Positions 6,872 to 38,452 of a stretch of DNA of 64,000 nucleotides are shown here, piece after piece. The DNA is from Neptuniibacter pectenicola (GTDB lineage Bacteria; Pseudomonadota; Gammaproteobacteria; Pseudomonadales; Balneatricaceae). The notes beneath the pieces are model-generated. The model saw only the letters and a program-made list of their open reading frames with translations, was not told where the DNA came from and did not search any database. The stretch lies in NCBI RefSeq assembly GCF_001597735.1, contig NZ_LUTS01000004.1, positions 124,001 to 188,000 of the forward strand, given 5' to 3'. Every line of letters starts with the position of its first letter. Position 1 is the stretch's first letter. The position numbers and the translations under genes were made by a program.

Positions 6872-7163
6872 TGTTGTTAATCTCAGATGTTTTTGGGTCT
6901 AAAGAGTCGATATAGAGACGGGTTAATCTAAAGCTTTGGAGGCTAATAAGTTATGAATATTATAGAGCTTAAGTGGGGATTGGGCTAGAATTGGCCAGTA
7001 TATAGGAAGGTTTTTTCTTTGAGCTGTATATCAAAGTGTTTCATTTAATTTCCGCACATCGAAATCCCTTATCGTCAATGCAATCCTTGAATAGATTGCA
7101 TCCGCTTTTTGTTTTTTTATTAAGCATTATTAATTTCATTACTCACATTAGATGTTACTGGCC
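6872..7163 (+). other. Intergenic leader between mnmC and the polysaccharide locus
   Basis: About 290 bases separate the divergent mnmC and legB-like genes. No ORF of note is present. A weak promoter candidate is TTGAGC at 7019-7024 with a CATTTA-like -10 about 17 bases on. No JUMPstart/ops (GGCGGTAGCGT) element was found. A terminator-like hairpin sits at 7078-7118. The main promoter of the 37 kb locus must lie in or near here, but I cannot fix it. Confidence 0.4.
7078..7118 (+). terminator. Terminator-like hairpin ahead of the polysaccharide locus
   Basis: A perfect 8 bp stem, ATGCAATC (7078-7085) and GATTGCAT (7094-7101), encloses an 8-base loop and is followed by CCGC and a T-rich run (TTTTTGTTTTTTT). 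In + orientation it looks intrinsic. It lies about 45-60 bases upstream of the first gene, so transcripts starting further upstream would have to pass it. Confidence 0.55.
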
Positions 7164-8351
7164 ATGAATATTTTAGAACTTATAGGAAGAAGTAAAGCGC
7201 TATTTAGTGAAGATTTAGCAGTTTGCGAAGAAGAGCTTTGCCGAATTGTTAGCCAGTCATCTTTTCTTGTCTTAGGTGGGGCAGGTTCTATTGGCCAGGC
7301 AGTGTCTAAAGAAATCTTCAAAAGAGACCCTCGTAAGCTTCATGTCGTTGATATTAGTGAAAATAATTTAGTTGAGCTTGTGCGGGATGTTAGAAGCTCA
7401 CTTGGTTATATTGATGGGGATTTTCAAACATTTGCGCTAGATATCGGTTCAATTGAGTACGATGTTTTTTTTGCTGCTGACGGTAAATACGACTATGTAT
7501 TGAATTTATCTGCATTGAAACATGTACGAAGTGAAAAGGATCCGTATACATTGATGCGTATGATTGATGTTAATGTTTTCAATACCGATAAAACAATAGC
7601 TCAGGCGATCAGCGCTGGGGCGAAAAAGTACTTTTGTGTATCCACAGATAAGGCTGCTAACCCCGTGAATATGATGGGTGCATCGAAGCGGATTATGGAG
7701 ATGTTTTTAATGCGGCGTAGTGAAGACATTAACATCTCTACTGCTCGTTTTGCTAATGTGGCCTTTTCTGATGGGTCTTTACTTCATGGATTTAATCAAC
7801 GCATTCAGAAGTCGCAGCCATTGGTTGCACCTAGTGATATTAAACGCTACTTCGTAACACCAGAAGAGTCAGGGATACTTTGTTTAATGTCATGTGTCTT
7901 TGGCAATAATCGTGATGTTTTTTTTCCAAAATTGAGTGATTCTTTACATTTGACGACGTTTTCTGATATTGCAGTAAAATATCTTGCGCAGCAAGGGTAT
8001 GAAACGTATGAATGCGATAATGAAGATGAAGCTCGAGCGTTAGTGCATACGCTTCCGCTGGAAGGGAAATGGCCTTGTTTATTTACAACCAGTGATACTA
8101 CAGGTGAAAAGGACTTCGAGGAGTTTTTTACTGAAAATGAAGTATTGGATATGGAACGCTTTGAAAATCTTGGCGTTATTGAAAATACACCTGGGTTTGA
8201 TGCTAGCCTGATTAATAAATTTGAGGTTGCTATTGCCGCTATGAAGGCTAAGAAGGCCTGGACGAAGGGCGAGATAATAGAGCTATTTTTTGACATGATT
8301 CCAGGTTTTGGACATAAGGAAACAGGTAAATACCTTGATGGAAAAATGTAA
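7164..8351 (+). CDS. legB: UDP/GDP-HexNAc 4,6-dehydratase, LegB-like
   Basis: An extended-SDR nucleotide-sugar 4,6-dehydratase that begins legionaminic-type nonulosonate synthesis by making a 4-keto-6-deoxy-HexNAc. The NAD motif is VLGGAGSIGQAV. The active-site block STDKAANPVNMMGASKR is of the CapD/FlaA1 type. The C-terminal ~120 residues (ending FGHKETGKYLDGKM) are a family-specific extension. Starts at 7152 and 7164 are both possible; the second (MNILELIGR) fits the family as I remember it. Neither has a clear ribosome site. legC follows by 14 bases. Confidence 0.88.
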   Translation: MNILELIGRSKALFSEDLAVCEEELCRIVSQSSFLVLGGAGSIGQAVSKEIFKRDPRKLHVVDISENNLVELVRDVRSSLGYIDGDFQTFALDIGSIEYDVFFAADGKYDYVLNLSALKHVRSEKDPYTLMRMIDVNVFNTDKTIAQAISAGAKKYFCVSTDKAANPVNMMGASKRIMEMFLMRRSEDINISTARFANVAFSDGSLLHGFNQRIQKSQPLVAPSDIKRYFVTPEESGILCLMSCVFGNNRDVFFPKLSDSLHLTTFSDIAVKYLAQQGYETYECDNEDEARALVHTLPLEGKWPCLFTTSDTTGEKDFEEFFTENEVLDMERFENLGVIENTPGFDASLINKFEVAIAAMKAKKAWTKGEIIELFFDMIPGFGHKETGKYLDGKM

Positions 8352-8365
8352 AGGCGCTTTGTTGC

Positions 8366-9526
8366 ATGGCTATTAATTTATCGTTTGGCGACAACCTAGT
8401 GGGTTTTGTGCGTGATATCTATCACACTGATGAGTTTATCCCCCTTCATGAGCCTACTTTCAGTGGCAATGAAAAAAAATATGTTCTAGATACGATTGAA
8501 AGCACTTTTGTTTCGAGCGTTGGTAAGTATGTTGATGATTTTGAACGCAGAATAGAAGCCTATACAGGTTGTGGTAAGGCTGTGGCTACTGTAAATGGTA
8601 GTGCCGCCCTGCACGTTGCTATGCATATGGCGGGTGTTCGCGCGGGAGACTTGGTTTTAACTCAGGCGCTAACTTTTGTGGCAACATGTAATGCTATTTA
8701 TCACATGGGTGCGAATCCAGTATTTATTGATGTTTCTAAAGTGAGCCTTGGTTTGTGCCCTGTCGCGATGGAAGCGTGGTTGTGTGAAAATGCTTTTTTG
8801 AAAGATAATGGTGGATGTTTTTATAAAGATGGAAAGCAGCGTATTAAAGCGGTTGTTCCAATGCACACATTTGGTCATCCTGTTCAAATGGATGAGTTGC
8901 TGGCTGTTTGTTTAAAATGGAATATTACAGTAATAGAAGATGCAGCAGAGAGCTTAGGGTCTTTGTATAAAGGAAAGCATACAGGGACGCTTGGGGAATT
9001 TGGCGCTATCAGTTTTAATGGCAATAAAATTATTACTGCTGGCGGAGGCGGTATGGCTTTATGCAAAGATGTAAACGTGGGTTTGCATGCTAAGCATATT
9101 ACAACAACAGCAAAAGCCCCGCACCCTTATGAGTTTTATCATGATGAACCAGGGTTTAATTATAGAATGCCGAATTTGAATGCGGCCCTTGGTTGTGCTC
9201 AAATGGAGGTTTTGCCTGCATTTCTTCAACAAAAAAGGGGACTTGCGGGCATGTATGAGGAGTTCTTTGCGGGTACTGAGTACCGCTTTGTATCTGAACC
9301 TTCTTACGGCCATTCGAATTACTGGTTGAACGCAATTATGTGCCCTGATCAGGAAGCACGTAATAATCTGCTGGAACTGACGAATAGCAAGGGTGTTATG
9401 ACTCGTCCTGTTTGGGCATTAATGCACAGGTTACCCATGTTTGCGAAAGCATATCGTGACGATTTAATTAATTCTCAATGGCTAGAACGCATTATTGTTA
9501 ATCTACCGAGTAGCCCAAAGAGCTAA
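8366..9526 (+). CDS. legC: LegC-type PLP aminotransferase (DegT/DnrJ/EryC1 family)
   Basis: Transfers an amino group to the 4-keto sugar made by the preceding dehydratase. The PLP lysine is K221 in SFNGNK, preceded by EDAAESLGSLYKGKHTGT, both family hallmarks. At 386 residues it is full length. It opens with the ~25-residue N-terminal stretch (FVRDIYHTDEFIPLHEP) seen in LegC-like members. It is followed by AAGGAG and the dehydrogenase gene. Confidence 0.9.
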   Translation: MAINLSFGDNLVGFVRDIYHTDEFIPLHEPTFSGNEKKYVLDTIESTFVSSVGKYVDDFERRIEAYTGCGKAVATVNGSAALHVAMHMAGVRAGDLVLTQALTFVATCNAIYHMGANPVFIDVSKVSLGLCPVAMEAWLCENAFLKDNGGCFYKDGKQRIKAVVPMHTFGHPVQMDELLAVCLKWNITVIEDAAESLGSLYKGKHTGTLGEFGAISFNGNKIITAGGGGMALCKDVNVGLHAKHITTTAKAPHPYEFYHDEPGFNYRMPNLNAALGCAQMEVLPAFLQQKRGLAGMYEEFFAGTEYRFVSEPSYGHSNYWLNAIMCPDQEARNNLLELTNSKGVMTRPVWALMHRLPMFAKAYRDDLINSQWLERIIVNLPSSPKS

Positions 9527-9540
9527 GGAGTTAAGTGTTC

Positions 9541-10386
9541 ATGCAGATTGCAGTAGTGGGCAGCGGGACGATGGGTTTAGGTATAGTCTCAGTTTTTGCT
9601 CAATATTCTGAAGTCTCAAGCATCCTGTGGTGGGGTAGAGAGAGTGGAGCTATTTGTTCTCGAAAGGAATCCTTGGTTCGAGAAATTAAGAAGATATGCC
9701 GTAAAAACGGGTTTGCAAAAAGTGATGCAGATACTTTGTTATCAAAAGTCGAAGTAATTCACTCTTTTGACTCTATCGGCGCTGCAGACTTTGTGATCGA
9801 AGCGGTTGCTGAAGATATGGATGTAAAGAAAACTCTGCTAAGCGATTTGTCTAATTATGTTTCTGATAATGCTGTTGTCGTAACAAATACATCTTCTTTA
9901 TCTATTACTGAGTTGTCGATGTGTTTTCGTAATCCGGAACGTTTTTTGGGTATTCACTTTTTTAACCCTGCCAATATTATGAAATTGGTTGAAGTTGTTG
10001 CCGGTTTAGCAACATCGAGAGATGCTGTTGATCGAGCTGTAGAGGTTATCGAGGGTCTAGGGAAGGAGGCTGTTATTGTAAATGACTCTCCAGGGTTTGT
10101 TGTGAACCGGATGCTTATTCCAATGATAAATGAAGGGATATCAGTTATGGCTGAGGGCGTAGCGACAAGGGAAGATATTGATAAGGCGATGAAACTCGGG
10201 GCTAATCATCCAATTGGGCCTATATCTCTTGCTGACTTTATTGGTACAGACGTTTGCTTATCTATTATGGATACACTGCATAAAGAAACTGGAGACCCTA
10301 AATATCGTGCACACCCACTACTTAGAAAGTATGTGCGTGCAGGGAGATTGGGGCGTAAAGTAAAACGAGGTTTCTATGACTATTGA
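9541..10386 (+). CDS. 3-hydroxyacyl(butyryl)-CoA dehydrogenase within the nonulosonate operon
   Basis: Full-length (281 residues) NAD(P)-dependent 3-hydroxybutyryl-CoA dehydrogenase of the Hbd/PaaH type. The Rossmann motif is GSGTMG at 7-12. The catalytic His-Glu pair is H139 and E151, with the 12-residue separation usual for the family. NDSPGFVVNRML and the C-terminal domain (ANHPIGPISLADFIGTD, ending GFYDY) are intact. The ATG at 9541 is preferred over GTG at 9535 because AAGGAG ends at 9530. It overlaps the acyltransferase gene by 11 bases. Inference: it supplies (S)-3-hydroxybutyryl-CoA for N-acylation of the nonulosonate, not fatty-acid oxidation. Confidence 0.9.
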   Translation: MQIAVVGSGTMGLGIVSVFAQYSEVSSILWWGRESGAICSRKESLVREIKKICRKNGFAKSDADTLLSKVEVIHSFDSIGAADFVIEAVAEDMDVKKTLLSDLSNYVSDNAVVVTNTSSLSITELSMCFRNPERFLGIHFFNPANIMKLVEVVAGLATSRDAVDRAVEVIEGLGKEAVIVNDSPGFVVNRMLIPMINEGISVMAEGVATREDIDKAMKLGANHPIGPISLADFIGTDVCLSIMDTLHKETGDPKYRAHPLLRKYVRAGRLGRKVKRGFYDY

Positions 10387-11203
10387 AAATAGATTAGAGA
10401 TTCTCGATATAGATGATTCTGAACTGTTGAAAGCTTACTTTCCGGCGATACAGAAATTGTTTATTGATGCTTTTGGAAAGCCAATAAGTAAAGAACTTTG
10501 GGAATGGGCTTATGTGGAAAACCCGTTCGGCTCACCTAAGGTCTCTTTGGCTTTTGATGGTGAGCGATTAGTTGCTCATTATGCGGTAATCCCTATGAAT
10601 CTTTCCTCTCTTGAAACAGAATTGCAGGGGTTCTTGTCAATGACAACAATGGTTGCTAGTGACTATAGGCGCCATCAGCTTTTCCAAAAAACGGCTGAGC
10701 GAGTGTATGCTCGCATCGAACGTAGTCAAAAACCAGCTGTTGTCTTTGGTTTTCCTAATGATCAGTCTGCACCGGGTTTTCGGAAAAGGTTAGGCTGGGA
10801 TATTTTAGATGATTTTACGGTTGTAACGTTGACACCCGAAGATATTCCTAAGGCTCAGGATGTTTTAAATATCATATCAGCTAGAAGTTATTTTCTTAAT
10901 CTGAGTGCGAAAGGGGTTGCTGATTGGAGGTGTGCTAAACCAGGTCAAGAGTGGATTTTTAGGGAAGATATTAGCATTAAATCTCATGGGCAGGAGCATG
11001 ATGTTATGTATATTGCTCCAGGTTGTACTCTTTCAGGGTTAGATGACTTAAATAGCTTTAATATGATACTGCCAATCTCTCGATCTCAGGCTATTGATGC
11101 TGGTTGGGATAATGCTTTTACCTATCGTTTTGGTTATAGGCAATTTAATATGGCTGATAAGTTAGAATTTAATGTGCAAATGTGTATGTCGGACGTTTTT
11201 TGA
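10376..11203 (+). CDS. GNAT-family N-acyltransferase
   Basis: A 275-residue protein with a GNAT core: FDGERLVAHYAVIPM (strands beta2-3), SMTTMVASDYRRHQLFQKTAERVY (acyl-CoA-binding beta4/alpha3 region, with R-R-H-Q in place of the usual Q/R-x-x-G-x-G/A), and FGFPNDQSAPGFRKRLGW. It occupies the place where a LegH-type 4-N-acyltransferase would be expected. Translational coupling to the dehydrogenase suggests its donor is the hydroxyacyl-CoA that enzyme makes (inference). It ends in a TGATG overlap with the NeuC-like gene. Confidence 0.75.
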   Translation: MTIENRLEILDIDDSELLKAYFPAIQKLFIDAFGKPISKELWEWAYVENPFGSPKVSLAFDGERLVAHYAVIPMNLSSLETELQGFLSMTTMVASDYRRHQLFQKTAERVYARIERSQKPAVVFGFPNDQSAPGFRKRLGWDILDDFTVVTLTPEDIPKAQDVLNIISARSYFLNLSAKGVADWRCAKPGQEWIFREDISIKSHGQEHDVMYIAPGCTLSGLDDLNSFNMILPISRSQAIDAGWDNAFTYRFGYRQFNMADKLEFNVQMCMSDVF

Positions 11204-12360
11204 TGAAAATAATAGCGTTAACATCGATACGTTCTGAATATGACCTATTAAGTGAGTTATACCGATCTCTGGATAGGGATAAGGATATTGATTTTCGACT
11301 CGTTGTTGGTGGGGCGCATAACTCATTGCGTCATGGCAATACATATGAAGATATAGTTAAAGATGGTTTCCCTATCCTTTGTAAAATTGAAAGTTTACTT
11401 GACTCTGATAGTGCTACATCAAGGATTAAAAGTGCATCTATATTATTGCTTTCGATTATTGATATAGTAAATGGTTTTTGTCCGGATTTGATTGTTTATG
11501 CTGGCGATAGAGAAGAGGCCCTCATTGGTGCCATGCTAGGTGCTTATTTAGGTGTTCCTACCATGCACTTTTTCGGAGGGGATCATGCTGCCGATGGCCA
11601 TGTTGATAACCCTGTACGTCATGCAGCGTCAAAATTATCTACTTGCCATTTAGTTAGCACTTCTGAGCATAAAAAAAGACTTCAAGCTATAGGAGAGCCT
11701 GACTCTAGGATTTTTAATATAGGTAGTGTAGCCCTAGATAAATTTGTTAATACGAAGGTAATTCACAACGTTGCAGATAGCATTCATGGGGCTCCAATTA
11801 AGAAAAAAATTGCACTATTTATTTTCCATCCAGTGAGTGGCGAGTTGGCTTGCGTTCGGCAGATTATCAATGATGCGCTAAGAGCTCTTTTTGATTCTGA
11901 CTATCATGTATTTATAGGCTTCCCTAATAGTGATCTAGGTAGTTCTGATATATCTAAGGCAATAGAGCAAGCGCTTGTTGATAAGCATGATTATACTTTT
12001 TATGGGAACCTTGATAGAGAGAGATTTATTAATCTATTTCGTTCCTCCTCCCTTATTGCGGGTAACTCTTCTGCTGGAATACTCGAAGCTGCCAGTATTC
12101 CAATACCATGTATTAATATAGGGCAGCGACAGAGAGGGCGGTGCTCGGGTAATAATGTTGTTTTTGTTGATGCAGATTACTGTTCAATTAAGCAAGGGAT
12201 TGACGAAGTGAATTCTGTTGCTTTTATCGAGCAACTCTCAGGTGTGAAGAATCCATATGGTGATGGCAAAGCGGTAGATAAAGCTATGGCGATTATCAAG
12301 GGAAGTGATTTTAGAACGATGTTCGAAAAAAAAGAGGATCCGCTTAGTGTCCAATCGTGA
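11203..12360 (+). CDS. legG: Hydrolysing NDP-HexNAc 2-epimerase, LegG/NeuC-like
   Basis: Releases the nucleotide and inverts C2 to give the free 6-deoxy-mannosamine-type sugar used by the NeuB-like synthase. GT-B fold features: MKIIALTSIRSEYD start, VYAGDREEALIGAMLGAYLGVP, and VRHAASKL, then a C-terminal GNSSAGILEA substrate/nucleotide block. 385 residues. The usual HxHGGE segment reads HFFGGD here. The ATG at 11203 is chosen (an in-frame GTG-like start lies 7 codons upstream) because it couples to the preceding stop. Confidence 0.88.
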   Translation: MKIIALTSIRSEYDLLSELYRSLDRDKDIDFRLVVGGAHNSLRHGNTYEDIVKDGFPILCKIESLLDSDSATSRIKSASILLLSIIDIVNGFCPDLIVYAGDREEALIGAMLGAYLGVPTMHFFGGDHAADGHVDNPVRHAASKLSTCHLVSTSEHKKRLQAIGEPDSRIFNIGSVALDKFVNTKVIHNVADSIHGAPIKKKIALFIFHPVSGELACVRQIINDALRALFDSDYHVFIGFPNSDLGSSDISKAIEQALVDKHDYTFYGNLDRERFINLFRSSSLIAGNSSAGILEAASIPIPCINIGQRQRGRCSGNNVVFVDADYCSIKQGIDEVNSVAFIEQLSGVKNPYGDGKAVDKAMAIIKGSDFRTMFEKKEDPLSVQS

Positions 12361-13024
12361 AACTGTTTTGGTAATAGCCCCGCACCCTGATGACGAAACA
12401 TTAGGATGTGGAGGAGCTCTTTTACGGCATCAATTTGAAAATCATGAGGTTCATTGGTTAATTGTTACCGGTATGAGCTCTGAAGCCGGGTTTAGTTTAG
12501 ATCGTATAAAGCAACGCTGTCAGGAAATTAATCAAGTTGCTGATTGTTATGGCTTTCATTCGGTACATGAACTAAATATGCCTCCTGCAGGGCTTGATGA
12601 TATTCCGTTAGGGGAGATGATTACCAGAATTAGTCACGTTGTTGGCTTGGTGGAGCCTACGCAGGTTTATGTTCCATTCCGTAATGATGTGCATAGCGAT
12701 CATAGGATGGTCTTTGATGCGGTTATGTCGGCTACAAAAAGCTTCCGTTATCCGTTTATAAAGCGCATTCTTGCTTATGAAACTATTTCGGAAACCGATT
12801 TTGATCTGAAGCCTGGGGCGGCGGTTTTTAGACCAAATTACTTTGTAGCTATTGATGATTTCCTTGCACGCAAGCTAGACGTTTTATCTATTTATCAGTC
12901 GGAGTTAGGTCCATTCCCGTTTCCTCGCAGTATTGAGGCAGTAGAGGCATTGTCTAAAGTTAGGGGTGTTCAATGTAATAGTCGTGCAGCCGAAGCGTTT
13001 ATGCTACTTAAGGAGATTGTTTAG
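12347..13024 (+). CDS. PIG-L family N-deacetylase
   Basis: A 225-residue zinc-dependent deacetylase. The PIG-L signature is APHPDDETLGCGG near the start, and a second metal ligand is likely in VHSDHRMVFDA. Family members remove N-acetyl from GlcNAc-like sugars. GTG at 12347 is chosen because AAAGAGGA precedes it by about 9 bases; it overlaps the previous gene by 14. In this operon it could free an amino group on the nonulosonate or its precursor for re-acylation or amidination (inference). Confidence 0.88.
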   Translation: MSNRETVLVIAPHPDDETLGCGGALLRHQFENHEVHWLIVTGMSSEAGFSLDRIKQRCQEINQVADCYGFHSVHELNMPPAGLDDIPLGEMITRISHVVGLVEPTQVYVPFRNDVHSDHRMVFDAVMSATKSFRYPFIKRILAYETISETDFDLKPGAAVFRPNYFVAIDDFLARKLDVLSIYQSELGPFPFPRSIEAVEALSKVRGVQCNSRAAEAFMLLKEIV

Positions 13025-13025
13025 G

Positions 13026-14099
13026 ATGTCTGTATTCGTAATAGCAGAGGCTGGTGTTAACCATAATGGTGATATTGATATTGCTAAGCGTTTAATTGAC
13101 TGTGCTGCATCTTCTGGTGCCGATGCGGTGAAGTTTCAGACCTTTGTAGCTGACCTACTTGTGACTAAAACGGCCAAACAGGCTAGTTATCAAGAAAAAA
13201 ATACGAATAGACAAATTAGTCAGCACCAAATGTTAAAAGAACTTGAACTAAGTTTTGATGCATATCAGAGGCTATCTGAATACTGCAAAGAGGTTGGTAT
13301 TGAGTTTATGTCAACCGCATTTGATAGTTTGAGTTTGAAGTTTTTAACTCAGGATATTGGGCTTAATCGATTAAAAGTACCTTCTGGCGATATTACGAAT
13401 GCTCCATTTTTGTTTGAGCATGCTAGAACTGGAGCTGATTTAATTTTATCGACAGGCATGAGTACTATTAGTGAGATACGATCAGCGTTAAGTGTAATCG
13501 CACTTGGTTATGCTGGGTCAGGTATTTTAACGGGTCGTGGGGAAATACCGATTCTTGATCGTAATGATATTCAGGCCCAGTTAGCGGAAAAAGTTGTCTT
13601 GCTTCACTGTACTACCGAATATCCAGCACCGTTGGAAACAATTAATTTAAAAGCTATTGGAACACTCTCTGCGGAATTTGGTTTGTCTGTAGGTTACTCT
13701 GATCATAGTGAAGGGGATCTTGTTTCTATTGCCGCTGTTGCGCAGGGTGCGCAAGTAATAGAGAAACACTTTACATTGGATCGCGAAATGGAGGGGCCCG
13801 ACCATAAGGCATCAATGGAGCCTCAAGCTTTACGCAAATTAATTACATCTATTCGTGAAGTTGAAATCGCGTTAGGTGACGGTATTAAAGCTCCTCTAGG
13901 TATTGAGAATCAAAATAAGAAAGTGGCAAGGAAAAGTCTTGTTGCTGCTGCAACTATTAAAAAAGGTGAACCGCTCACAGAAGATAACATGGCGGTTAAA
14001 AGGCCGGGAACAGGGGTAAGCCCTTTTGAGTATTGGTCTATGTTAAGTATGCAAGCTCATAGGGATTATGCCGAAGGGGACTTGCTTGAAAAAGAGTAA
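13026..14099 (+). CDS. legI: Nonulosonate synthase, LegI/NeuB-like
   Basis: Condenses a 6-carbon amino sugar with phosphoenolpyruvate to the 9-carbon acid. The NeuB TIM-barrel motifs are FVIAEAGVNHNGDIDIAKRL, DAVKFQTF, LKVPSGDI and YSDHSEG. A C-terminal SAF (antifreeze-like) domain covers about residues 290-357. 357 residues. The ATG at 13026 lies one base after the previous stop with AAGGAG upstream; the longer frame from 12966 is unlikely. Confidence 0.94.
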   Translation: MSVFVIAEAGVNHNGDIDIAKRLIDCAASSGADAVKFQTFVADLLVTKTAKQASYQEKNTNRQISQHQMLKELELSFDAYQRLSEYCKEVGIEFMSTAFDSLSLKFLTQDIGLNRLKVPSGDITNAPFLFEHARTGADLILSTGMSTISEIRSALSVIALGYAGSGILTGRGEIPILDRNDIQAQLAEKVVLLHCTTEYPAPLETINLKAIGTLSAEFGLSVGYSDHSEGDLVSIAAVAQGAQVIEKHFTLDREMEGPDHKASMEPQALRKLITSIREVEIALGDGIKAPLGIENQNKKVARKSLVAAATIKKGEPLTEDNMAVKRPGTGVSPFEYWSMLSMQAHRDYAEGDLLEKE

Positions 14100-14153
14100 T
14101 TGTGCGTTTCTTTGGTTAGCATCGTTATATGAGTATTGAGCGATACAGTGAAT

Positions 14154-15209
14154 ATGAATACAAAGTGGAAAAAAGTAGCAATTGCTCAAAATGATACGGT
14201 TTTATCTGCCCTAAAGTTGATTAATGATGAGCCTCTTAAAGTGGTGCTTGTGGTTGATGAGAATGATGGGTTGCTGGGTGTAGTGACGGATGGTGATATA
14301 CGGAGAGGACTTTTAAATAATTTACAGTTATCGGACCCTGTTTCATTGGTAATGAATGCCGAGCCAATTATTGCTTCTTTAAATGCTTCAAGTGATGAAT
14401 TAAGAAACTTGATGGAGTCTAGCGGCGTTCTAATGATTCCTATCATTGACGATGGAAAGGTTGTCGGCTTAGAAACGCTTCATCACTTATTGGCTAAACC
14501 TAAATATGACAACCCCGTATTTATTATGGCAGGAGGCTTTGGTACACGTCTTAAACCGCTAACTGATGATTGCCCGAAACCTATGCTGAAGGTCGGTAAG
14601 AAACCTATCCTTGAAACGGTATTAGAGAGCTTTATCAAAGCAGGATTTGTTAATTTCTATATATCTACTCATTATATGCCTGAGAAAATTCATCAACATT
14701 TTGGTAAAGGCGAAAAGTGGGGTATTAATATTGAGTACATACATGAAGAGTCCCCCTTAGGCACAGGTGGAGCGCTTGGCTTGTTACCTCCGGACCTTCC
14801 AGATTTGCCTATTATTATGATGAATGGCGATGTGCTAACTAAAGTGGACTTTGGGCACTTACTTGCATTTCATAATGAGTCAACAGGTGATGCGACGATG
14901 TGTGTACGGGAGTATGAATACCAAATTCCTTACGGTGTTGTCAAAGGCGAAAAAAATCGAGTTGTTAGTATGGTAGAAAAGCCAATACAGCGTTTTTTCG
15001 TTAATGCAGGTATCTATGTTGTTAGCGCTAACATTGTAAAGTCTATACCTAGGGATTATGTAATTGATATGCCTACTCTGCTGGAAAATAAAATGGCCGA
15101 AGGGGGAGATGTTCTGATGTTTCCTGTACATGAGTACTGGTTAGATATTGGTCAAATGGATGACTTTAAAAGGGCTCAAAGTGATATATTGTCATTAGGA
15201 TTTGATTGA
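14154..15209 (+). CDS. ptmE: CBS-domain sugar nucleotidyltransferase, PtmE-like
   Basis: Two CBS motifs (about 1-115, with VVDENDGLLGVVTDGDIRRGLL) are fused to a nucleotidyltransferase domain (from about 122) carrying MAGGFGTRLKPLTDDCPKPMLKVGKKP. This is the architecture of Campylobacter PtmE, the GlcNAc-1-P guanylyltransferase that supplies GDP-GlcNAc for legionaminic acid. Start is uncertain: TTG 14136, GTG 14148 and ATG 14154 are all in frame; the ATG gives the family-like N-terminus. No strong ribosome site is seen. It couples by TGATG to the next gene. Confidence 0.85.
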   Translation: MNTKWKKVAIAQNDTVLSALKLINDEPLKVVLVVDENDGLLGVVTDGDIRRGLLNNLQLSDPVSLVMNAEPIIASLNASSDELRNLMESSGVLMIPIIDDGKVVGLETLHHLLAKPKYDNPVFIMAGGFGTRLKPLTDDCPKPMLKVGKKPILETVLESFIKAGFVNFYISTHYMPEKIHQHFGKGEKWGINIEYIHEESPLGTGGALGLLPPDLPDLPIIMMNGDVLTKVDFGHLLAFHNESTGDATMCVREYEYQIPYGVVKGEKNRVVSMVEKPIQRFFVNAGIYVVSANIVKSIPRDYVIDMPTLLENKMAEGGDVLMFPVHEYWLDIGQMDDFKRAQSDILSLGFD

Positions 15210-16186
15210 TGGACGTAGCTGCGGTTATTGGACTGGGTAATATTGCTAAGCGTCATCGAGCCAATATAAGGAAAATATTTCCTGGGTGTCAGATTGTTGC
15301 CATGCCGTCCAGCAATCGGCATGTGCCGGAAGATGTTCCTGATGCTGATATTGTAGTGAAAGATATAAATGAGTTATTAGCTTATACCCCAGAGCTGGTC
15401 ATTGTCGCCTCTCCAGCAACTTTTCATCAGCAGCATGCCTTGCCATTTATTGGGCTGAATGTGCCTATCATCATTGAAAAGCCGCTGAGTCACAGCTCCT
15501 CCGAGGCCGAGCAGATTGTTATGGCTACCAATGAGTACTCTTCCGATATAATTGTTGGTTATTGTCTTCGCTTTTTACCTTCCACTCAAGTTGTCCGAAA
15601 ACTAATAGATACTGGGAAAATCGGTAAAATTTATAACGTGTATGCTGAAGTAGGGCAGTATTTACCTGATTGGCGACCCAGTATTGATTTTAGAAACTCC
15701 GTTTCTGCAAAAAAAAACTTGGGTGGGGGGGCATTGTTAGAATTGAGCCATGAACTTGATTACTTAGCTTTTCTTTTTGGTTCTGAGTTTGAATTCAAGC
15801 ATGCGATTTTAAGAAAAAGTGCAGAGCTTGGTTTGGATGTAGAGGATCTCGTTGATGTTGTTTTTTGCTTTAATGAGGAGGTTGTTTGTAACCTTCATAT
15901 GGATTTTTTACAGAAAAAGCCTCAACGATTTTGCAGATTGATTGGGAGCGATGGACGTATCGAATGGGATCTTATTGAAAATAAAGTTGTTTCTTATACA
16001 TCTGAAGGGGAATGCGTAGAGTATAATTCGCCTTCATGGGATAAAAATGAAATGTATATCGCGTTGATTGATAGCTTAATGAATAAAGAGCTATTGAGTG
16101 AGGTGAGCCCTGCAACTGTGGCGGAAGCGAGCAGAGTAGTGAGTTTCATTGAGATTATTAAAGATAAAGCAATATGGATGAGTTGA
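15209..16186 (+). CDS. ptmF: Gfo/Idh/MocA-family oxidoreductase, PtmF-like
   Basis: A 325-residue NAD(P)-dependent sugar oxidoreductase. The N-terminal Rossmann motif is VIGLGNIAKRHRANI; the family's EKPL segment occurs in IIEKPLSHS; the C-terminal GGGALLELSHELDYLAFLFG block is typical. Position between ptmE-like and neuA-like genes matches the Campylobacter ptm set, where PtmF and PtmA act early in supplying the amino sugar. Its exact substrate here is inferred only. Confidence 0.82.
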   Translation: MDVAAVIGLGNIAKRHRANIRKIFPGCQIVAMPSSNRHVPEDVPDADIVVKDINELLAYTPELVIVASPATFHQQHALPFIGLNVPIIIEKPLSHSSSEAEQIVMATNEYSSDIIVGYCLRFLPSTQVVRKLIDTGKIGKIYNVYAEVGQYLPDWRPSIDFRNSVSAKKNLGGGALLELSHELDYLAFLFGSEFEFKHAILRKSAELGLDVEDLVDVVFCFNEEVVCNLHMDFLQKKPQRFCRLIGSDGRIEWDLIENKVVSYTSEGECVEYNSPSWDKNEMYIALIDSLMNKELLSEVSPATVAEASRVVSFIEIIKDKAIWMS

Positions 16187-16187
16187 A

Positions 16188-16877
16188 ATGAAAGTCTTTG
16201 GCTTTATTTTTGCGCGTGGGGGGTCGAAGGGGCTACCAGGGAAAAATGTTAAAATGCTTGCTGGCAAGCCAATGATTTGTTATTCGATAGAGGCAGCTCT
16301 CGCGTGCGCTTGTATCGATCAAGTTTTTGTATCCACGGATGATAATGAAATAGCTGAAGTTGCCAAGAATACAGGGGCCGAGGTCATCCATAGACCTTCT
16401 ACTCTTGCGCAAGATAATAGTGATGAATGGCTGGCTTGGCGCCATGCTATTCAATGGGTGAAAGATAAATATGGGGATTTCTCTATATTTGTCAGTTTAC
16501 CTGTAACTAGTCCTTTGCGCAGTGTTGATGATATACAAAGTGCAGTAGAGCAGTTAATACAGTCTGGAGCTGATATATGTATATCGGTTACAGCTGCCTC
16601 GCGAAGTCCTTTCTTTAATATGGTGACGAAGCATGATGGCAACGTTTCTTTAGTAATAGAGCCCAGTACAGATGTATATCGTCGTCAGGATGCTCCAGAA
16701 GTGTTTGATATTACGACTGTTGTATATGCGACAACTCCTCATTATGTGATGACTCAAGATCGCTTGTTTAGCGGGAAAGTAACCGCTATAGAGGTTCCTA
16801 AAGAAAGAGCTGTAGATATTGATGATATCTATGATTTTAAATTCGCAGAAATGTTGATAAATGAGATGCGTTTATGA
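16188..16877 (+). CDS. legF: CMP-nonulosonate cytidylyltransferase, LegF/NeuA-like
   Basis: Activates the nonulosonic acid with CTP. The N-terminal motif FIFARGGSKGLPGKNVKMLAGKP and the VSLPVTSPLR and ERAVDIDD blocks define the CMP-sialate synthetase family. 229 residues, normal for the single-domain form. It starts two bases after the preceding gene and overlaps the SDR gene by 4 bases. Confidence 0.92.
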   Translation: MKVFGFIFARGGSKGLPGKNVKMLAGKPMICYSIEAALACACIDQVFVSTDDNEIAEVAKNTGAEVIHRPSTLAQDNSDEWLAWRHAIQWVKDKYGDFSIFVSLPVTSPLRSVDDIQSAVEQLIQSGADICISVTAASRSPFFNMVTKHDGNVSLVIEPSTDVYRRQDAPEVFDITTVVYATTPHYVMTQDRLFSGKVTAIEVPKERAVDIDDIYDFKFAEMLINEMRL

Positions 16878-17638
16878 TGTTGAATGGTAAGACAATCCTT
16901 GTTGTAGGCGCTGCCGGACTACTTGGGGGGGAAGTGGTTAAGGGGTTATTAAATAGTGGAGCGCACGTTATTGCTACAGACATCTCCATTGATGCTATGG
17001 ACGATCGTTTCAGTAAGTTAGATATTGACTATGATGACGAGGTACTCACATTACATCAGTTGAATATTCTGTGTGAGCAAAGTGTTAAGGAATTTTTTCA
17101 ATCATTAGACGTGCTTGATGGTGCCGTCAATGCGGTTTATCCACGTAATAGTAATTACGGAGCTTCATTTTTTGATGTTAATTTAGCTGACTTTAATGAC
17201 AATGTGAACTTGCAGTTAGGTGCAATGTTCCTTTTTTCACAGCAATGCGCTGCATTTTTCATGCGCACGAAAAAACCATTCTCGCTTGTGAATTTTTCTT
17301 CTATATATGGTGTAGTTGCTCCTGATTTTGATATCTATAATAACACTCAAATGACCATGCCAGTTGAATATGCAGCGGTAAAATCAGCTATGTTACATTT
17401 AAATAAATATATCGTTAGTTTTGTGCATGACTCAGATTTTAGAATAAATAGTGTAAGCCCTGGTGGGATCTACGATTGGCAGCCTGAAGGTTTTGTTGAA
17501 AATTACCGAGCTAAAACTTTGGGTGCAGGTATGTTAAACCCTTCAGATATGAATGGCTGTGTGGTGTTTCTTCTATCGGAAGCATCTAAATATATTAATG
17601 GACAGAATATCGTCGTGGATGATGGTTTCACCCTTTAG
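16874..17638 (+). CDS. ptmA: Short-chain dehydrogenase, PtmA-like
   Basis: A 254-residue classical SDR: VVGAAGLLGGEVV cofactor motif, VNFSSIYG (catalytic Ser region), the YAAVKSAM active-site Tyr-Lys and NSVSPGGI. Neighbourhood with PtmE-, PtmF- and NeuA-like genes supports a PtmA-type role in the early amino-sugar steps (inference). Start may be ATG 16874 or 16877. Confidence 0.82.
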   Translation: MMLNGKTILVVGAAGLLGGEVVKGLLNSGAHVIATDISIDAMDDRFSKLDIDYDDEVLTLHQLNILCEQSVKEFFQSLDVLDGAVNAVYPRNSNYGASFFDVNLADFNDNVNLQLGAMFLFSQQCAAFFMRTKKPFSLVNFSSIYGVVAPDFDIYNNTQMTMPVEYAAVKSAMLHLNKYIVSFVHDSDFRINSVSPGGIYDWQPEGFVENYRAKTLGAGMLNPSDMNGCVVFLLSEASKYINGQNIVVDDGFTL

Positions 17639-17658: not shown

Positions 17659-18804
17659 ATGACAGAGAAAGTTTTTTGGTGTAATTCATGTCTTAATATG
17701 TCTACGCGTCCCAGAATAGAATTTGACGAAAACGGCATTTGTAATGCATGTAATTGGGCCAAGCAAAAGAAAAGCATGGATTGGTCTAGCAGGCAAGAAG
17801 AACTTCAAGGTTTGTTGAACAAGTACCGCTCAAAAAACGGAGATGGTTTTGATTGTATTGTGCCAGTGAGCGGTGGTAAAGATGGTTCTTATGTTGCTTA
17901 TATGCTGAAACATAAATATGGGATGAACCCGTTGGCTGTTACGGTGCGTCCTGCTCTGAGCTTGGAAGTAGGTGACCAGAACTTAGTTAATTTCATTGAG
18001 TCGGGTTATAACCATATACACATATCTCCAGATACAAGAATCATGCAAAAGCTTAATAAGCATGGTTTTATAGAAAAAGGTTTTCCTTATTATGGCTGGT
18101 TAATTGCTATCACTACGGCAGTGATTCAAACCGCCCATAATTTTAAAATACCATTAATTTTTTATGGTGAGGATGGGGAAGTTGAATATGGGGGGTCTAC
18201 GGAGAGTAAGAGTAAAGCACTTTATAATATTGAGTATATGAAGCGGGTTTATTTTGAAGGTGGTTATGACAAAGTACTAGAAAAAGTGTTGGCAGAAGAT
18301 GATGTTGAAGATAAAGATTTAGCATTTTGGCGGTTTCCTTCAGATCAAGAGGTGGAAGATAGTGAGCTTGCCTTTACTCATTGGTCTTACTACGAAAGCT
18401 GGGATTCATATCGTAACTATCTTGTCGCAAAAGAACATTGTGGGTTAAAGGAAAAAGAAGAAGGTACTGCAGGTACATTCACGAATTTTTCCCAAAATGA
18501 TCAGGCTTTATACGCTCTACATGCATACTTGATGTATCTTAAGTTTGGTTTTGGTCGTGCGACCCAAGATGCGGGTATTGAAATTAGAAGGGGAGCTATG
18601 ACCCGTGAGCAGGCTCTGAATTTAGTAATGGCTTATGATAATCAATATCCGCATGAGTTTCTCGACTTGTATTTAGACTATTACCAGATGACAAAAGACG
18701 AGTTCGATGAGGTGCTTGATAGATACGCGAATAAATCACTATTCGAAAAAATAGATGGAATTTGGCAGCCAAAATTTTTAGTGGGTGAAGACTTCCAAAT
18801 ATGA
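17659..18804 (+). CDS. N-acetyl sugar amidotransferase (PseA/WbpG/PtmG type)
   Basis: Converts a sugar N-acetyl to an acetamidino group using ammonia and ATP. The PP-loop ATPase motif is PVSGGKDGS. An N-terminal four-cysteine cluster (CNSC near residue 8-11 and CNAC near 28-31) is typical of the family. 381 residues. It is followed immediately by HisH- and HisF-like genes, the same trio known from P. aeruginosa O-antigen (WbpG-HisH2-HisF2). AGGAGAG-like site GGAGAG lies upstream of the ATG. Confidence 0.92.
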   Translation: MTEKVFWCNSCLNMSTRPRIEFDENGICNACNWAKQKKSMDWSSRQEELQGLLNKYRSKNGDGFDCIVPVSGGKDGSYVAYMLKHKYGMNPLAVTVRPALSLEVGDQNLVNFIESGYNHIHISPDTRIMQKLNKHGFIEKGFPYYGWLIAITTAVIQTAHNFKIPLIFYGEDGEVEYGGSTESKSKALYNIEYMKRVYFEGGYDKVLEKVLAEDDVEDKDLAFWRFPSDQEVEDSELAFTHWSYYESWDSYRNYLVAKEHCGLKEKEEGTAGTFTNFSQNDQALYALHAYLMYLKFGFGRATQDAGIEIRRGAMTREQALNLVMAYDNQYPHEFLDLYLDYYQMTKDEFDEVLDRYANKSLFEKIDGIWQPKFLVGEDFQI

Positions 18805-19412
18805 AGCTAGCAATCGTTGACTATGGGATGGGTAATCTTCATTCATTGGTTGGTGCATTAGATTATGTATCGAATATTGACGTGCTTGTCTCTTCAAATA
18901 TAAAAGACCTTCGTCAAGCGGATAAATTGATTTTGCCGGGGGTAGGACATTTTTTGAGTGCAATGGCATGTATTAAAGATCTTGGCTTGGATGCTGTACT
19001 TAAAGAGTTGGTGATAGAAGAAAAAACACCCATATTAGGCATCTGTCTGGGTATGCAATTATTGACTGACTCTAGCGATGAGGGTGGCTATAGTGATGGC
19101 TTAGGTTTTATTAATGGTCGAGCCACTAGGTTTAACTCTAATGAACTACCTGTTCCCCATGTAGGGTATAACCAAGTAAACGCAGCCGTTAATTCGCGAT
19201 TATATGACGGTTTTGGGCCTTCGCCTGATTTTTATTTTACACATAGCCATCAGCTTCAAAGCGACTGCTCGATAGGTCAATCTACATGTCATTATGGGAA
19301 TGATTTTATAGCTAGTTTTGAGTATGAGAATATAGCCGGTGTGCAGTTTCATCCTGAACTAAGTCAAACAAATGGCTTGAAATTGTTAAAAAACTTTGTC
19401 GAGTTATTTTAA
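18801..19412 (+). CDS. hisH: HisH-like glutaminase for the amidotransferase
   Basis: Class I glutamine amidotransferase delivering ammonia to its partner. The catalytic triad is intact: C82 in GICLGMQ, and H184 and E186 in QFHPE. 203 residues. Since there are no other histidine genes nearby and it is ATGA-coupled to the sugar amidotransferase, it is a dedicated paralogue for acetamidino formation rather than histidine synthesis. Confidence 0.92.
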   Translation: MKLAIVDYGMGNLHSLVGALDYVSNIDVLVSSNIKDLRQADKLILPGVGHFLSAMACIKDLGLDAVLKELVIEEKTPILGICLGMQLLTDSSDEGGYSDGLGFINGRATRFNSNELPVPHVGYNQVNAAVNSRLYDGFGPSPDFYFTHSHQLQSDCSIGQSTCHYGNDFIASFEYENIAGVQFHPELSQTNGLKLLKNFVELF

Positions 19413-20185
19413 TGTTAAGAAATCGACTGATATTTAGCCTGATCTACTCGGATGGCTTTTTCATGCAAAGTAGAAATTTTAGGCTCCAGCGAGTGGGTGA
19501 TATAAATTGGCTAGAGAAAAACTATCGTTTTCATGAAATAGCATTCTCTTTAGATGAGTTAATTATATTAAATGCGTCTCGTACGGGGAAAGATATTACA
19601 GAGTTCAGCAAAATTGTTTCTAGGCTGGCCTGTAAGGTTTTTCTGCCGATTACCGCGGGAGGCGGGATTCGTCAAATTGGGGATGCTGAGCAATTGTTTA
19701 ATAGTGGTGCGGATAAGCTCTCACTAAATACAGTATTGTATTCAGACCCCGTATTAGTTGATTCAATTGCAAAAAAATATGGTCAACAGAGTATTGTTGC
19801 AATTGTTGACTATAAAATCGAAGGCGACACGCCTGTAGTATATATAGATAATGGTACTCAAAAGCTTAATATTACGTTGCTTGAGTATATTAAAAATATT
19901 GAAAATATGGGTGCTGGTGAAGTTGTTTTAAATAGCATAGATAAAGATGGCACTGGCTTTGGTTATGACTTAGACATAATTGAACGATACAAGTCACATA
20001 TAAATGTTCCTTTAGTGGTATCAGGTGGTGCTGGAAATGAGCATCATTTAGCTGTTGGTTTGAATGTAAACGGTGTTTCGGCGGTGTCCACGGCTAATTT
20101 ATTTAACTTTATAGGAAATGGGTTACCTAATGCTAGATCTTACTTGATTAAGAACGGCTTCAATCTAGCGGATTGGCGTAAGTGA
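19412..20185 (+). CDS. hisF: HisF-like ammonia-channel partner
   Basis: A 257-residue (beta-alpha)8 HisF homologue. Phosphate-binding turns GGGIRQIGDAEQLFNSGADKL and VVSGGAG are kept. At the place of the catalytic Asp11 of true HisF the residue is Ile11 (LIYSDG instead of LDVKDG), as expected for acetamidino-modification HisF proteins that only conduct ammonia. It overlaps the hisH stop by one base. This supports a role with the PP-loop enzyme at 17659. Confidence 0.9.
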   Translation: MLRNRLIFSLIYSDGFFMQSRNFRLQRVGDINWLEKNYRFHEIAFSLDELIILNASRTGKDITEFSKIVSRLACKVFLPITAGGGIRQIGDAEQLFNSGADKLSLNTVLYSDPVLVDSIAKKYGQQSIVAIVDYKIEGDTPVVYIDNGTQKLNITLLEYIKNIENMGAGEVVLNSIDKDGTGFGYDLDIIERYKSHINVPLVVSGGAGNEHHLAVGLNVNGVSAVSTANLFNFIGNGLPNARSYLIKNGFNLADWRK

Positions 20186-21396: not shown

Positions 21397-23178
21397 ATGA
21401 TGAAAATAATTGGTATTTATGATGGACATAACTCTTCTGTAGCTTTGTCAGTTGATGGGGAAATAGTTTGTGCGGTACAGGAAGAGCGTTTTACAAAAAG
21501 AAAGAATGAAACAGGATTTCCTAAGAATGCATTAAAGTATTTACTTGATAAGTATGAGTTGACTAATCAGGATATTGATTTGGTTGCGATGTCTACGATA
21601 GAACGAACAGATATAAATAATTTTCAGTACCCTATTGATGCTGTTTTTAGTGTGGAAAATTATATAGATCTGATGGAATATTATTGGAAGCCGAAACTAT
21701 CAGGTAAAGAGTATACAAAAGACTACGCTAAACAGTTTTTTGAAGAACATTTCCCAAATGAAGATACATTTTATAGTATTCCTGATTCTTTCTATGAATT
21801 AGATACAGATACACTGCAAAAGAAAATGATTGCAGTAACGACCAGTGATGTTGCTCGCTTTATTGGTGTAGATGAACAAAAAATAAAATTTTATGATCAC
21901 CATACATGCCATGCTATGTATGCTTATTTTGCTAATCCGAACAAAAAAAATAATACAGTAGCTATTACTGTGGATGCGTATGGGGATAAGCGAAATCAGA
22001 CTGTATGGCGTATTGTTGATAATAAGTTCGAATTAGTAGTCGATAGTGCTCAATGTGAAATTGCTCGTTTATATCGAATGGTTACTCTTTATTTACGCAT
22101 GAAGCCTTTGGAGCATGAGTTTAAAGTGATGGGGTTAGCTCCCTATGCAAAAACTCACTACTTTAAGGAAATTGAAGCTGTATTTGAGGAGTTAATGGTC
22201 TTTGATGGCTTGAAGATCGTACATAAGAACCGACCAGATAATATGTATGAATACTTGTCAGAAAAGTTAAAGTATTTCAGGTTTGATAATATCGCTGGAG
22301 CGATTCAGTCTTATACTGAGAAAATGCTAATTTCATTGTTTGAAAGGTCTTCGAAAGAGATTGGTTTTAACAACTTTGTCTTCAGCGGCGGAGTAGCAAT
22401 GAATGTTAAAGCAAACAAAGCATTAGGGGAGTTAGATTGTGTGGACGATTTGTTTGTTGCAGGCTCCTCATCCGATGAATCTCAAAGTATAGGTGCTTGT
22501 TATTATGCTAATTATGAAAATAACATCAAGAACCAACCATTACATGATTTATATCTAGGCACCGAAAACACAGATGCCGAAGTTTTAGCTTTTATTGAAA
22601 AATCTGGGCTTGATACGAAATATAGAGTCAAAGAAGTAGAAAATGCCGAATTAGCAAAATTACTAGCGGATGGCGAAGTTCTCGCTCGTGTTGTCGGAAA
22701 AATGGAATTTGGATCTAGAGCCTTAGGTAATAGAAGTATTTTAGCTAACCCTTCCAACCCTGGTATTATTCAGCATATAAATGAGCTTATTAAGGGGCGA
22801 GATTTTTGGATGCCTTTTGCAGCTACAGTCTTAGATTCATATCAGGAAAGGTATTTGGAAAATCCGAAAGGCTTCGAATCGAGATATATGGCTGTCGCAA
22901 TGGATACCAAGAAGGAATTCTTAGGCGAAATTAAAGCAGGTACGCATCCTTACGATGAAACTATTCGGCCACAGATTTTAACAAAGGATCAAAATCCAGG
23001 TTATTATGATTTAATTGAGAAGTTTTCAAAGTTAACAGGCATTGGTTCACTTCTGAATACCAGTTATAACTTGCACGGGCTTCCTGTGGTAAATGATATT
23101 GCAGATGCCGTGCATGTATTTGAGAATTCTGGATTAAAGTACTTAGTGCTTAATAACTATCTGTTATCTAAGATTTAG
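21397..23178 (+). CDS. Carbamoyltransferase, NodU/CmcH family
   Basis: O-carbamoylates a sugar using carbamoyl phosphate and ATP. The N-terminal ASKHA-like domain opens GIYDGHNSSVALSVDGEIV and has the EERFTKRKNE and DHHTCHAMYA (metal-binding histidines) motifs; the FSGGVAMNVKAN block follows; the C-terminal domain has EFGSRALGNRSI and LNTSYN. 593 residues, normal length. It sits between rfbB and wzx, suggesting a carbamoylated repeat unit. ATG 21397 or 21400. Confidence 0.92.
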   Translation: MMKIIGIYDGHNSSVALSVDGEIVCAVQEERFTKRKNETGFPKNALKYLLDKYELTNQDIDLVAMSTIERTDINNFQYPIDAVFSVENYIDLMEYYWKPKLSGKEYTKDYAKQFFEEHFPNEDTFYSIPDSFYELDTDTLQKKMIAVTTSDVARFIGVDEQKIKFYDHHTCHAMYAYFANPNKKNNTVAITVDAYGDKRNQTVWRIVDNKFELVVDSAQCEIARLYRMVTLYLRMKPLEHEFKVMGLAPYAKTHYFKEIEAVFEELMVFDGLKIVHKNRPDNMYEYLSEKLKYFRFDNIAGAIQSYTEKMLISLFERSSKEIGFNNFVFSGGVAMNVKANKALGELDCVDDLFVAGSSSDESQSIGACYYANYENNIKNQPLHDLYLGTENTDAEVLAFIEKSGLDTKYRVKEVENAELAKLLADGEVLARVVGKMEFGSRALGNRSILANPSNPGIIQHINELIKGRDFWMPFAATVLDSYQERYLENPKGFESRYMAVAMDTKKEFLGEIKAGTHPYDETIRPQILTKDQNPGYYDLIEKFSKLTGIGSLLNTSYNLHGLPVVNDIADAVHVFENSGLKYLVLNNYLLSKI

Positions 23179-37211: not shown

Positions 37212-37823
37212 GTGAAGGTATACTGTTTTTTTCGTAGATTTTTAGATGTTGTTATAGCACTGTCTTTAATGGTTTTGCTGGCACCTGTGCTCATGGTTAC
37301 AGCGCTTTTTATTAGAGTGAAACTGGGTTCCCCCATATTGTTTTGCCAGCTTCGCCCCGGATTGAAGGGGAGCCCTTTTAAAATGTATAAGTTTCGCACT
37401 ATGTTGGATCAATGCGATGAAGCTGGGGTGGCGCTGTCAGATGATCAACGCCTTACACAATTTGGTAAAACGCTCCGTTCAACGAGTCTTGATGAACTGC
37501 CTGAGTTATATAATGTTTTGAAAGGGGATATGTCTCTTATTGGGCCTCGACCGTTATTAATGGAATATTTACCGCTTTATAATGAGAAGCAAAAACGGCG
37601 TCATGATGTAAGGCCCGGTATTACAGGTTGGGCTCAAGTTCATGGTCGTAACAACCTGAGTTGGGAGGAAAAGTTTAACTATGATGTTTGGTATGTGGAC
37701 AATTACTCCTTCAAAGTTGATATAAAAATTATTTTGTTATCAATCAAGGCCGTATTATCACGAGAAGGTGTAAGTGCCGAGGGACATGTTACAGTAAAAA
37801 AATTTATGGGTAATGAAAAGTGA
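37212..37823 (+). CDS. Initiating undecaprenyl-phosphate sugar-1-phosphate transferase (PglC-like)
   Basis: A 203-residue monotopic phosphoglycosyltransferase: one hydrophobic N-terminal hairpin (about 10-33), then [27 protein letters not shown], the [23 protein letters not shown] catalytic Asp-Glu block, and [14 protein letters not shown]. The short form lacks the WcaJ-type N-terminal membrane domain, like PglC. GTG 37212 is preferred over upstream starts inside the previous gene. Starts repeat-unit assembly. Confidence 0.94.
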
Positions 37824-38452
37824 AACTGGCGATATATGGGGCTGGAGGACATGGGCGAGTGGTCGCAGATGCTGCTGATTTAAGCGGTATTTGGTCTGAA
37901 ATAATTTTTTTTGATGATGCCTATCCGGACTTCAAATGTAGTGGTCGTTGGCCTGTTATAGGTAGGTTGGTTGATTTAATGTCTATAGTGTCAACCTATG
38001 ATGGTATTGTTGTTGCTGTGGGTGCGTGTGATGAGCGGCTCCGTTTATTGGAACTCATTCAAGCCGGTGGGGGGAATATTGTGTCTGTCGTCCACCCTAG
38101 TGCGGTTATTGCTTCGGACTGCTCGTTGGGTGATGGTGTCGTTGTTTGTGCTCTTTCGGTTATTAATACGGGCTCATCTATCGGTAATGGCGTTATTATC
38201 AATACGTCAGCAACTATTGATCATGATACGCACCTCGCTGATGGGGTTCATATCAGCCCAGGTGCTCATCTGGCTGGGGGGGTAACTGTGGGGTTGTCTT
38301 CTTGGATAGGCATTGGCGCAATAATTAAACAGCAAGTAATTATCGGTGATCAAGTTGTGGTTGGCGCTGGAGCTGTTGTTCTTAAAAATGTACAGTCGGG
38401 GCTTACGGTTGTAGGTGTCCCTTCGACTCCAATTTATAGTGGTTTAGAATAA
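37820..38452 (+). CDS. pglD: Sugar N-acetyltransferase, PglD/NeuD-like
   Basis: A 210-residue protein with the PglD arrangement: N-terminal Rossmann-like part ([20 protein letters not shown]), then left-handed beta-helix repeats with [32 protein letters not shown], in which the first His of DHDTH is the expected catalytic base. It acetylates the C4 amine made by the downstream aminotransferase, giving UDP-di-N-acetylbacillosamine. GTG start overlapping the previous stop. Confidence 0.92.

Follow-up and report, generated by a model that had tools for sequence, protein, structure and literature searches.

A 3-hydroxybutyryl-CoA dehydrogenase-like gene coupled to an acyltransferase gene in a legionaminate-type operon: a candidate acyl supply for a surface sugar

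The window (the whole 64,000-nucleotide stretch of DNA analysed) contains a tightly spaced, 14-gene legionaminate-type operon, in which a 3-hydroxybutyryl-CoA dehydrogenase-like gene, hbd, is located between legC and a GNAT-family acyltransferase gene (Table 1). The first-pass annotation had placed this dehydrogenase in a legionaminic-type gene set, an assignment that is upheld by the LegC, NeuC/LegG and NeuB/LegI products, all of which score above their NCBIfam cut-offs; the 11-base overlap that it had reported between hbd and the GNAT gene was likewise recovered (11 bp, 10376-10386). The GC content of the operon is 0.37-0.43, versus 0.47-0.49 for ligA, rpoD and dnaG, a difference that fits the variable nature of surface-sugar loci. 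Pfam and NCBIfam scans recognized no NeuD/LegH homologue within the 14 genes, and a NeuD/PglD-type gene located elsewhere in the same cluster is a possible N-acetylase for the other amine.

Table 1. Genes of the operon, and the NeuD/PglD-type gene of the same cluster, in window positions.
Gene or predicted product	Position	Strand	Length (aa)	Basis
4,6-dehydratase, Polysacc_synt_2 type (LegB/LgaA role)	7152..8351	+	399	PF02719 2.6e-42; 72% identical homologue adjoins legC in L166
legC, 4-aminotransferase	8366..9526	+		TIGR04181 518.5 bits, cut-off 420
hbd, 3-hydroxybutyryl-CoA dehydrogenase-like	9541..10386 (ATG 9541, stop 10386)	+	281	Pfam, NCBIfam, solved relatives
GNAT, Acetyltransf_9, tandem-GNAT fold, presumed N-acyltransferase	10376..11203 (ATG 10376, stop 11203)	+	275	
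legG/neuC, hydrolysing nucleotide-sugar 2-epimerase	11203..12360	+		TIGR03568 352 bits, cut-off 235.9
PIG-L family de-N-acetylase	12347..13024 (GTG start chosen by analyst)	+		PF02585 2.6e-21
legI/neuB, nonulosonate synthase	13026..14099	+		TIGR03569 468 bits, cut-off 399.65
ptmE/lgaG-like CBS + nucleotidyltransferase (sugar-1-phosphate guanylyltransferase role)	14136..15209	+		PF00483 1.6e-38, CBS
Gfo/Idh/MocA oxidoreductase	15206..16186	+		PF01408
legF, CMP-nonulosonate synthetase	16188..16877	+		closest NCBIfam PseF, 153 bits, below cut-off 205.7
ptmA-like SDR	16874..17638	+		NCBIfam PRK09186 over cut-off; PtmA 185 bits
N-acetyl sugar amidotransferase (acetamidino formation)	17659..18804	+		TIGR03573 WbuX 367 bits, cut-off 203.2
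HisH-like glutaminase partner	18801..19412	+		TIGR01855 over cut-off
HisF/WbuZ-like partner	19412..20185	+		TIGR03572 225.6 bits, below cut-off 299.7
NeuD/PglD-type acetyltransferase, outside the operon	37820..38452	+		TIGR03570 209 bits, cut-off 160.8

The PIG-L protein exhibits conserved HPDDE and DxxxDH-type motifs in an eight-row alignment. Given the amidotransferase and its HisH/HisF-like partners (17659-20185), an acetamidino group on the sugar is also probable, while the translation of 21397-23178, in the same surface-sugar cluster, predicts a carbamoyltransferase and hence possible O-carbamoylation.

The hbd product is a member of the 3HCDH/Hbd family, with matches to the Pfam domains 3HCDH_N (1.8e-49, 168.5 bits) and 3HCDH (9e-35, 119.5 bits), each against a cut-off of 22. 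The top-scoring of 19 NCBIfam models was PRK05808, 3-hydroxybutyryl-CoA dehydrogenase, at 341 bits and thus below the cut-off of 408, and the nearest solved structure is also a 3-hydroxybutyryl-CoA dehydrogenase (6aa8, 5e-82). The dehydrogenase had been described as complete, with His139 and Glu151 intact, and the alignment confirms both residues at these positions along with Ser119 and Asn189, so that the full catalytic set is retained. Enzymes of the 3HCDH type yield the (S)-enantiomer. At the end of Rossmann strand beta2, the window protein possesses Gly32-Arg33 in place of the Asp that is present in 24 of 27 comparable relatives. Replacement of this acid by Gly-Arg is an NADPH-type pattern among Rossmann folds, and for this reason NADPH use and operation in the reductive direction are suggested for the window enzyme. 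A similar Gly-Arg was observed in one relative, L028, whose 3.8-kb stretch contains no sugar genes.

The adjacent GNAT matches PF13527 (Acetyltransf_9; 6e-11, 42.9 bits against a cut-off of 25), and its AlphaFold model presents a confident two-domain fold (pLDDT 82), for which Foldseek returned Eis-type tandem GNATs and the aminoglycoside 2'-N-acetyltransferase AAC(2')-Ia. Its motif A reads YRRHQLF, with Gln at the loop glycine, and so departs from the CoA motif Q/R-x-x-G-x-G/A; the corresponding loop is RRHG (RRHGLF) in locus L166, described below, and RGRG, RGSG or QGMG in other relatives. This Gln, which may alter CoA binding, is the main warning sign at the locus. The C-terminal half of the window GNAT is also shorter than in L049, L050, L092 and L144, a short form that is shared with L166.

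With regard to acyl-CoA supply, a search of the host genome with Hbd as query returned a single other match, a 719-aa FadB-like protein, and the window gene is consequently the sole standalone hbd of this genome. The host also encodes three thiolases and a PhaB-type acetoacetyl-CoA reductase, all scoring over their cut-offs, together with PhaC-type synthases, from which it may be expected that (R)-3-hydroxybutyryl-CoA should already be available. Since these genes account for the (R)-form, and the Hbd family gives the (S)-form, a dedicated Hbd would be best explained by an (S)-substituent; the explanation thus lies mainly in the enantiomer or in flux.

To assess recurrence, a LegC search was performed across 398 genomes of the phylum, and the retrieved flanks did not contain a second Hbd. 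A GNAT alignment-profile search of 369 genomes of the class identified locus L166 in genome G526, which belongs to the same class as the window host and to a different genus and family. Here, legB, legC, neuD, Hbd, GNAT and PIG-L follow in a row, and the Hbd and GNAT genes share 8 bp. The L166 Hbd is a genuine 3HCDH with its catalytic residues kept; its beta2 end reads Ser-Arg by ungapped spacing and has Asp in register by gapped alignment. Recurrence of the overlapping pair argues that the adjacency is more than chance, and as the Hbd and GNAT proteins retain just 29% and 39% identity to those of the window (72% for LegB and 52% for LegC), the two genes have stayed together through extensive divergence. 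A NeuC match is absent from the G526 genome, and for this reason the L166 product may be something other than legionaminate; the two loci have the LegB/LegC stage in common, an indication that acylation occurs while the sugar is still a hexose. The G526 cluster (L166:4465-7832) also contains a pair of NeuB-like genes and a gene distantly resembling KdsB, and its sugar may be an undescribed relative of the nonulosonates.

Across the 44 LegC loci compared, several of which were picked by GNAT or PIG-L homology so that these frequencies are not unbiased, Hbd is present in two (the window and L166), both with this GNAT, and absent from the other 42; the GNAT itself occurs in seven, accompanied by Hbd in two and by PIG-L in all seven. 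The co-occurrence of the pair in related loci, proposed earlier as a check on the coupling, is found in a second genus and family. We consider the Hbd-GNAT pair to be real but rare, its coupling supported by one independent recurrence. Single-sequence searching with the GNAT found no close relative in the host's order, including two sampled congeners, and the gene is absent from the other 53 genomes of the order to which the L166 host belongs. A scan of genome_contigs returned a single relative, L049, and none was found in viral_contigs or phages.

The constant companion of this GNAT is thus PIG-L rather than Hbd, and in the nonulosonate module PIG-L suggests de-N-acetylation followed by re-acylation. 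Four loci (L050, L092, L144 and L145) combine PIG-L with this GNAT. Including these four, ten LegC loci besides the window hold PIG-L, and in each of them it is accompanied by a GNAT or a formyltransferase or, in one case, by an ATP-grasp enzyme. Among the 39 loci for which LegC was the sole search criterion, a GNAT or formyltransferase is present in 4/4 loci with PIG-L versus 2/35 without it (Fisher p = 1.8e-4). In three loci, a formyltransferase (Formyl_trans_N/C) directly adjoins PIG-L, after NeuC (L087:6734-8298, L099:6774-8350 and L101:3992-5529), likely representing a cassette that exchanges N-acetyl for N-formyl. The Dehalococcoidales nonulosonate locus L049 (7833-12377) consecutively encodes an SDR, an AMP-binding acyl ligase, a GNAT, a methyltransferase-like protein and PIG-L, where the ligase and SDR preceding the GNAT would constitute another arrangement for acyl supply. 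The ATP-grasp case is that of Ensifer adhaerens, in which LegG, PIG-L and LegI are followed by the ATP-grasp protein and a predicted hydrolase (L123:18673-21200), and which also possesses two CMP-sugar synthetase-like genes. The legC gene of G538 (L101:9541-10506) is interrupted by two TGA codons in the matched stretch, and is possibly a pseudogene or the result of a sequencing error.

These arrangements can be tentatively drawn together, at somewhat less than even confidence, as a recurring acyl-swap cassette of nonulosonate loci, whereby PIG-L would strip the GlcNAc-derived N-acetyl group and a formyltransferase, a GNAT or perhaps an ATP-grasp ligase would re-acylate the amine, the GNAT form being able to bring its own acyl-CoA source (Hbd in the window, ligase and SDR in L049). 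In GlcNAc, N2 is already acetylated, whereas the amine that LegC installs at C4 is free; the deacetylase would for that reason be needed chiefly for N2, corresponding to C5 of the nonulosonate. C5 is thus the first candidate for the acylated position, and C7 a possible second.

It is probable that the operon itself produces a tailored acyl group for its surface sugar. With moderate confidence, we read it as an operon of the nonulosonate type that includes its own stereospecific source of acyl groups, whose substrate, cofactor, enantiomer and acylated position we infer. A housekeeping thiolase would provide acetoacetyl-CoA, which Hbd would reduce, probably with NADPH, to (S)-3-hydroxybutyryl-CoA; PIG-L would most likely remove an N-acetyl group, freeing an amine of the LegB/LegC sugar, and the GNAT would move the (S)-3-hydroxybutyryl group onto this amino group of the 2,4-diamino-2,4,6-trideoxyhexose, the net effect being a swap of acetyl for (S)-3-hydroxybutyryl. 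LegG, LegI and LegF, with the amidotransferase genes, would then convert the acylated sugar to a CMP-nonulosonate. Against this mechanism stand the single independent recurrence, the absence of Hbd from 5/7 GNAT loci and the sub-threshold NCBIfam score of Hbd. The first-pass annotation had the operon making its own (S)-acyl-CoA through a two-gene unit, a reading that is partly supported: the overlapping pair does recur, but general metabolism can already make the (R)-form, and the functional unit appears larger, as it includes the PIG-L deacetylase.

Of the competing explanations, the one that fares best, while still unlikely, retains Hbd as the supplier of the GNAT and dispenses with the acyl swap: the GNAT would replace LegH on the free 4-amine left by LegC (N7 of the nonulosonate), with PIG-L acting elsewhere. 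The lack of a recognizable NeuD/LegH homologue inside the operon accords with this, as does the presence of 3-hydroxybutanoyl at N7 in known derivatives of Leg and Pse (PMC9676051; PMC4881576), Acinetobacter Leg5Ac7RHb being an example. It is countered by the joint occurrence of GNAT and PIG-L in 7/7 loci, by the presence of NeuD in L050, L092 and L166, which leaves the GNAT for another amine, and by the superfluity of a deacetylase for an amine that is already free. It is improbable that the true substrate of Hbd is some other 3-oxoacyl-CoA, a 3-oxoacyl group carried by ACP or by a sugar, or a compound without CoA. Its score under the PRK05808 cut-off, the mere 29% identity of the L166 homologue, the inclusion of the non-CoA dehydrogenase FHMPC DH in the family, and an N-acetoacetyl-viosamine precursor discussed for the viosamine pathway of Pseudomonas syringae (PMC3927599) would allow for such a substrate, but the top curated model and the solved relatives are 3-hydroxybutyryl-CoA dehydrogenases, the catalytic residues are intact and the partner GNAT has a CoA-type acyltransferase fold.

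Less probable again is a decaying Hbd-GNAT pair in which the GNAT no longer binds acyl-CoA, as the motif A Gln and the shortened C-terminal half could indicate; the reading frame is still open, the two-domain model is confident and core residues are conserved, and truncation as decay is judged unlikely because L166 has the same short C-terminus. That hbd is a catabolic hitchhiker playing no part in the sugar pathway is highly improbable, for although the family is common (matches in 263/369 sampled genomes of the class, mostly inside longer FadB-type proteins), the overlapping pair recurs in L166, and the gene has operon-like spacing, a base composition matching that of its neighbours and no other catabolic gene in its operon.

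The N-acyl groups of bacterial surface sugars vary greatly, and their prediction from genes is an open problem for serotyping and glycan annotation. If the proposed acyl supply is correct, an (S)-specific acyl-CoA source beside its transferase would render both the substituent and its stereochemistry readable from the genome, and the combination of PIG-L with a transferase would predict loci that swap N-acetyl for formyl or other acyl groups.

Among related systems, the capsule-type locus L050 of Sinorhizobium mexicanum has GNAT, NeuC, PIG-L, LegI, LegB, LegC and PtmE in common with the window, but carries NeuD in place of Hbd and a longer GNAT of 29% identity. The legionaminate (Leg/Ptm) pathway of Campylobacter jejuni, like the window, combines LegB/C/G/I/F with PtmA/PtmE-type genes and an acetamidino-type modification; to our knowledge, it includes neither Hbd nor PIG-L. 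3-Hydroxybutyramido nonulosonates are known from Acinetobacter (PMC9676051) and Sinorhizobium (PMC4881576), and the (S)-3-hydroxybutanoyl group is a known sugar N-substituent on Acinetobacter QuiNAc4N, as is the (R)-form on Leg5Ac7RHb (PMC9676051). In Acinetobacter baumannii, the lgaABCHIFG (Leg5Ac7RHb) and qhbCB (QuiNAc4N-(S)-Hb) modules place 3-hydroxybutanoyl on a sugar amine by means of a dedicated acyltransferase, and the window gene set is, like lga, of the legionaminate type; as listed, these modules lack Hbd and PIG-L, and the lga product carries an (R)-acyl group at N7 (PMC9676051). Gene content is accordingly not the same as that of lgaABCHIFG, the window adding hbd, PIG-L, Gfo/Idh, ptmA and amidotransferase genes. 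A literature search found no paper linking Hbd or PIG-L with legionaminic or nonulosonic loci, nor any account of a legionaminate-type cluster in which a GNAT is accompanied by an Hbd of the 3HCDH type. There is precedent for sugar islands that encode a reductase of their own for 3-hydroxybutyryl formation: the viosamine island of P. syringae (vioA, B, M, R, S, T and acp) encodes a 3-oxoacyl reductase, VioR, that is needed for 3-hydroxybutyryl-modified viosamine, and deletion of vioR removes modified viosamine from flagellin (PMC3927599). That island employs a 3-oxoacyl-ACP reductase with KAS III and ACP and acts on viosamine (PMC3927599), whereas in the window it is a nonulosonate operon that pairs a GNAT with an Hbd of the 3HCDH type.
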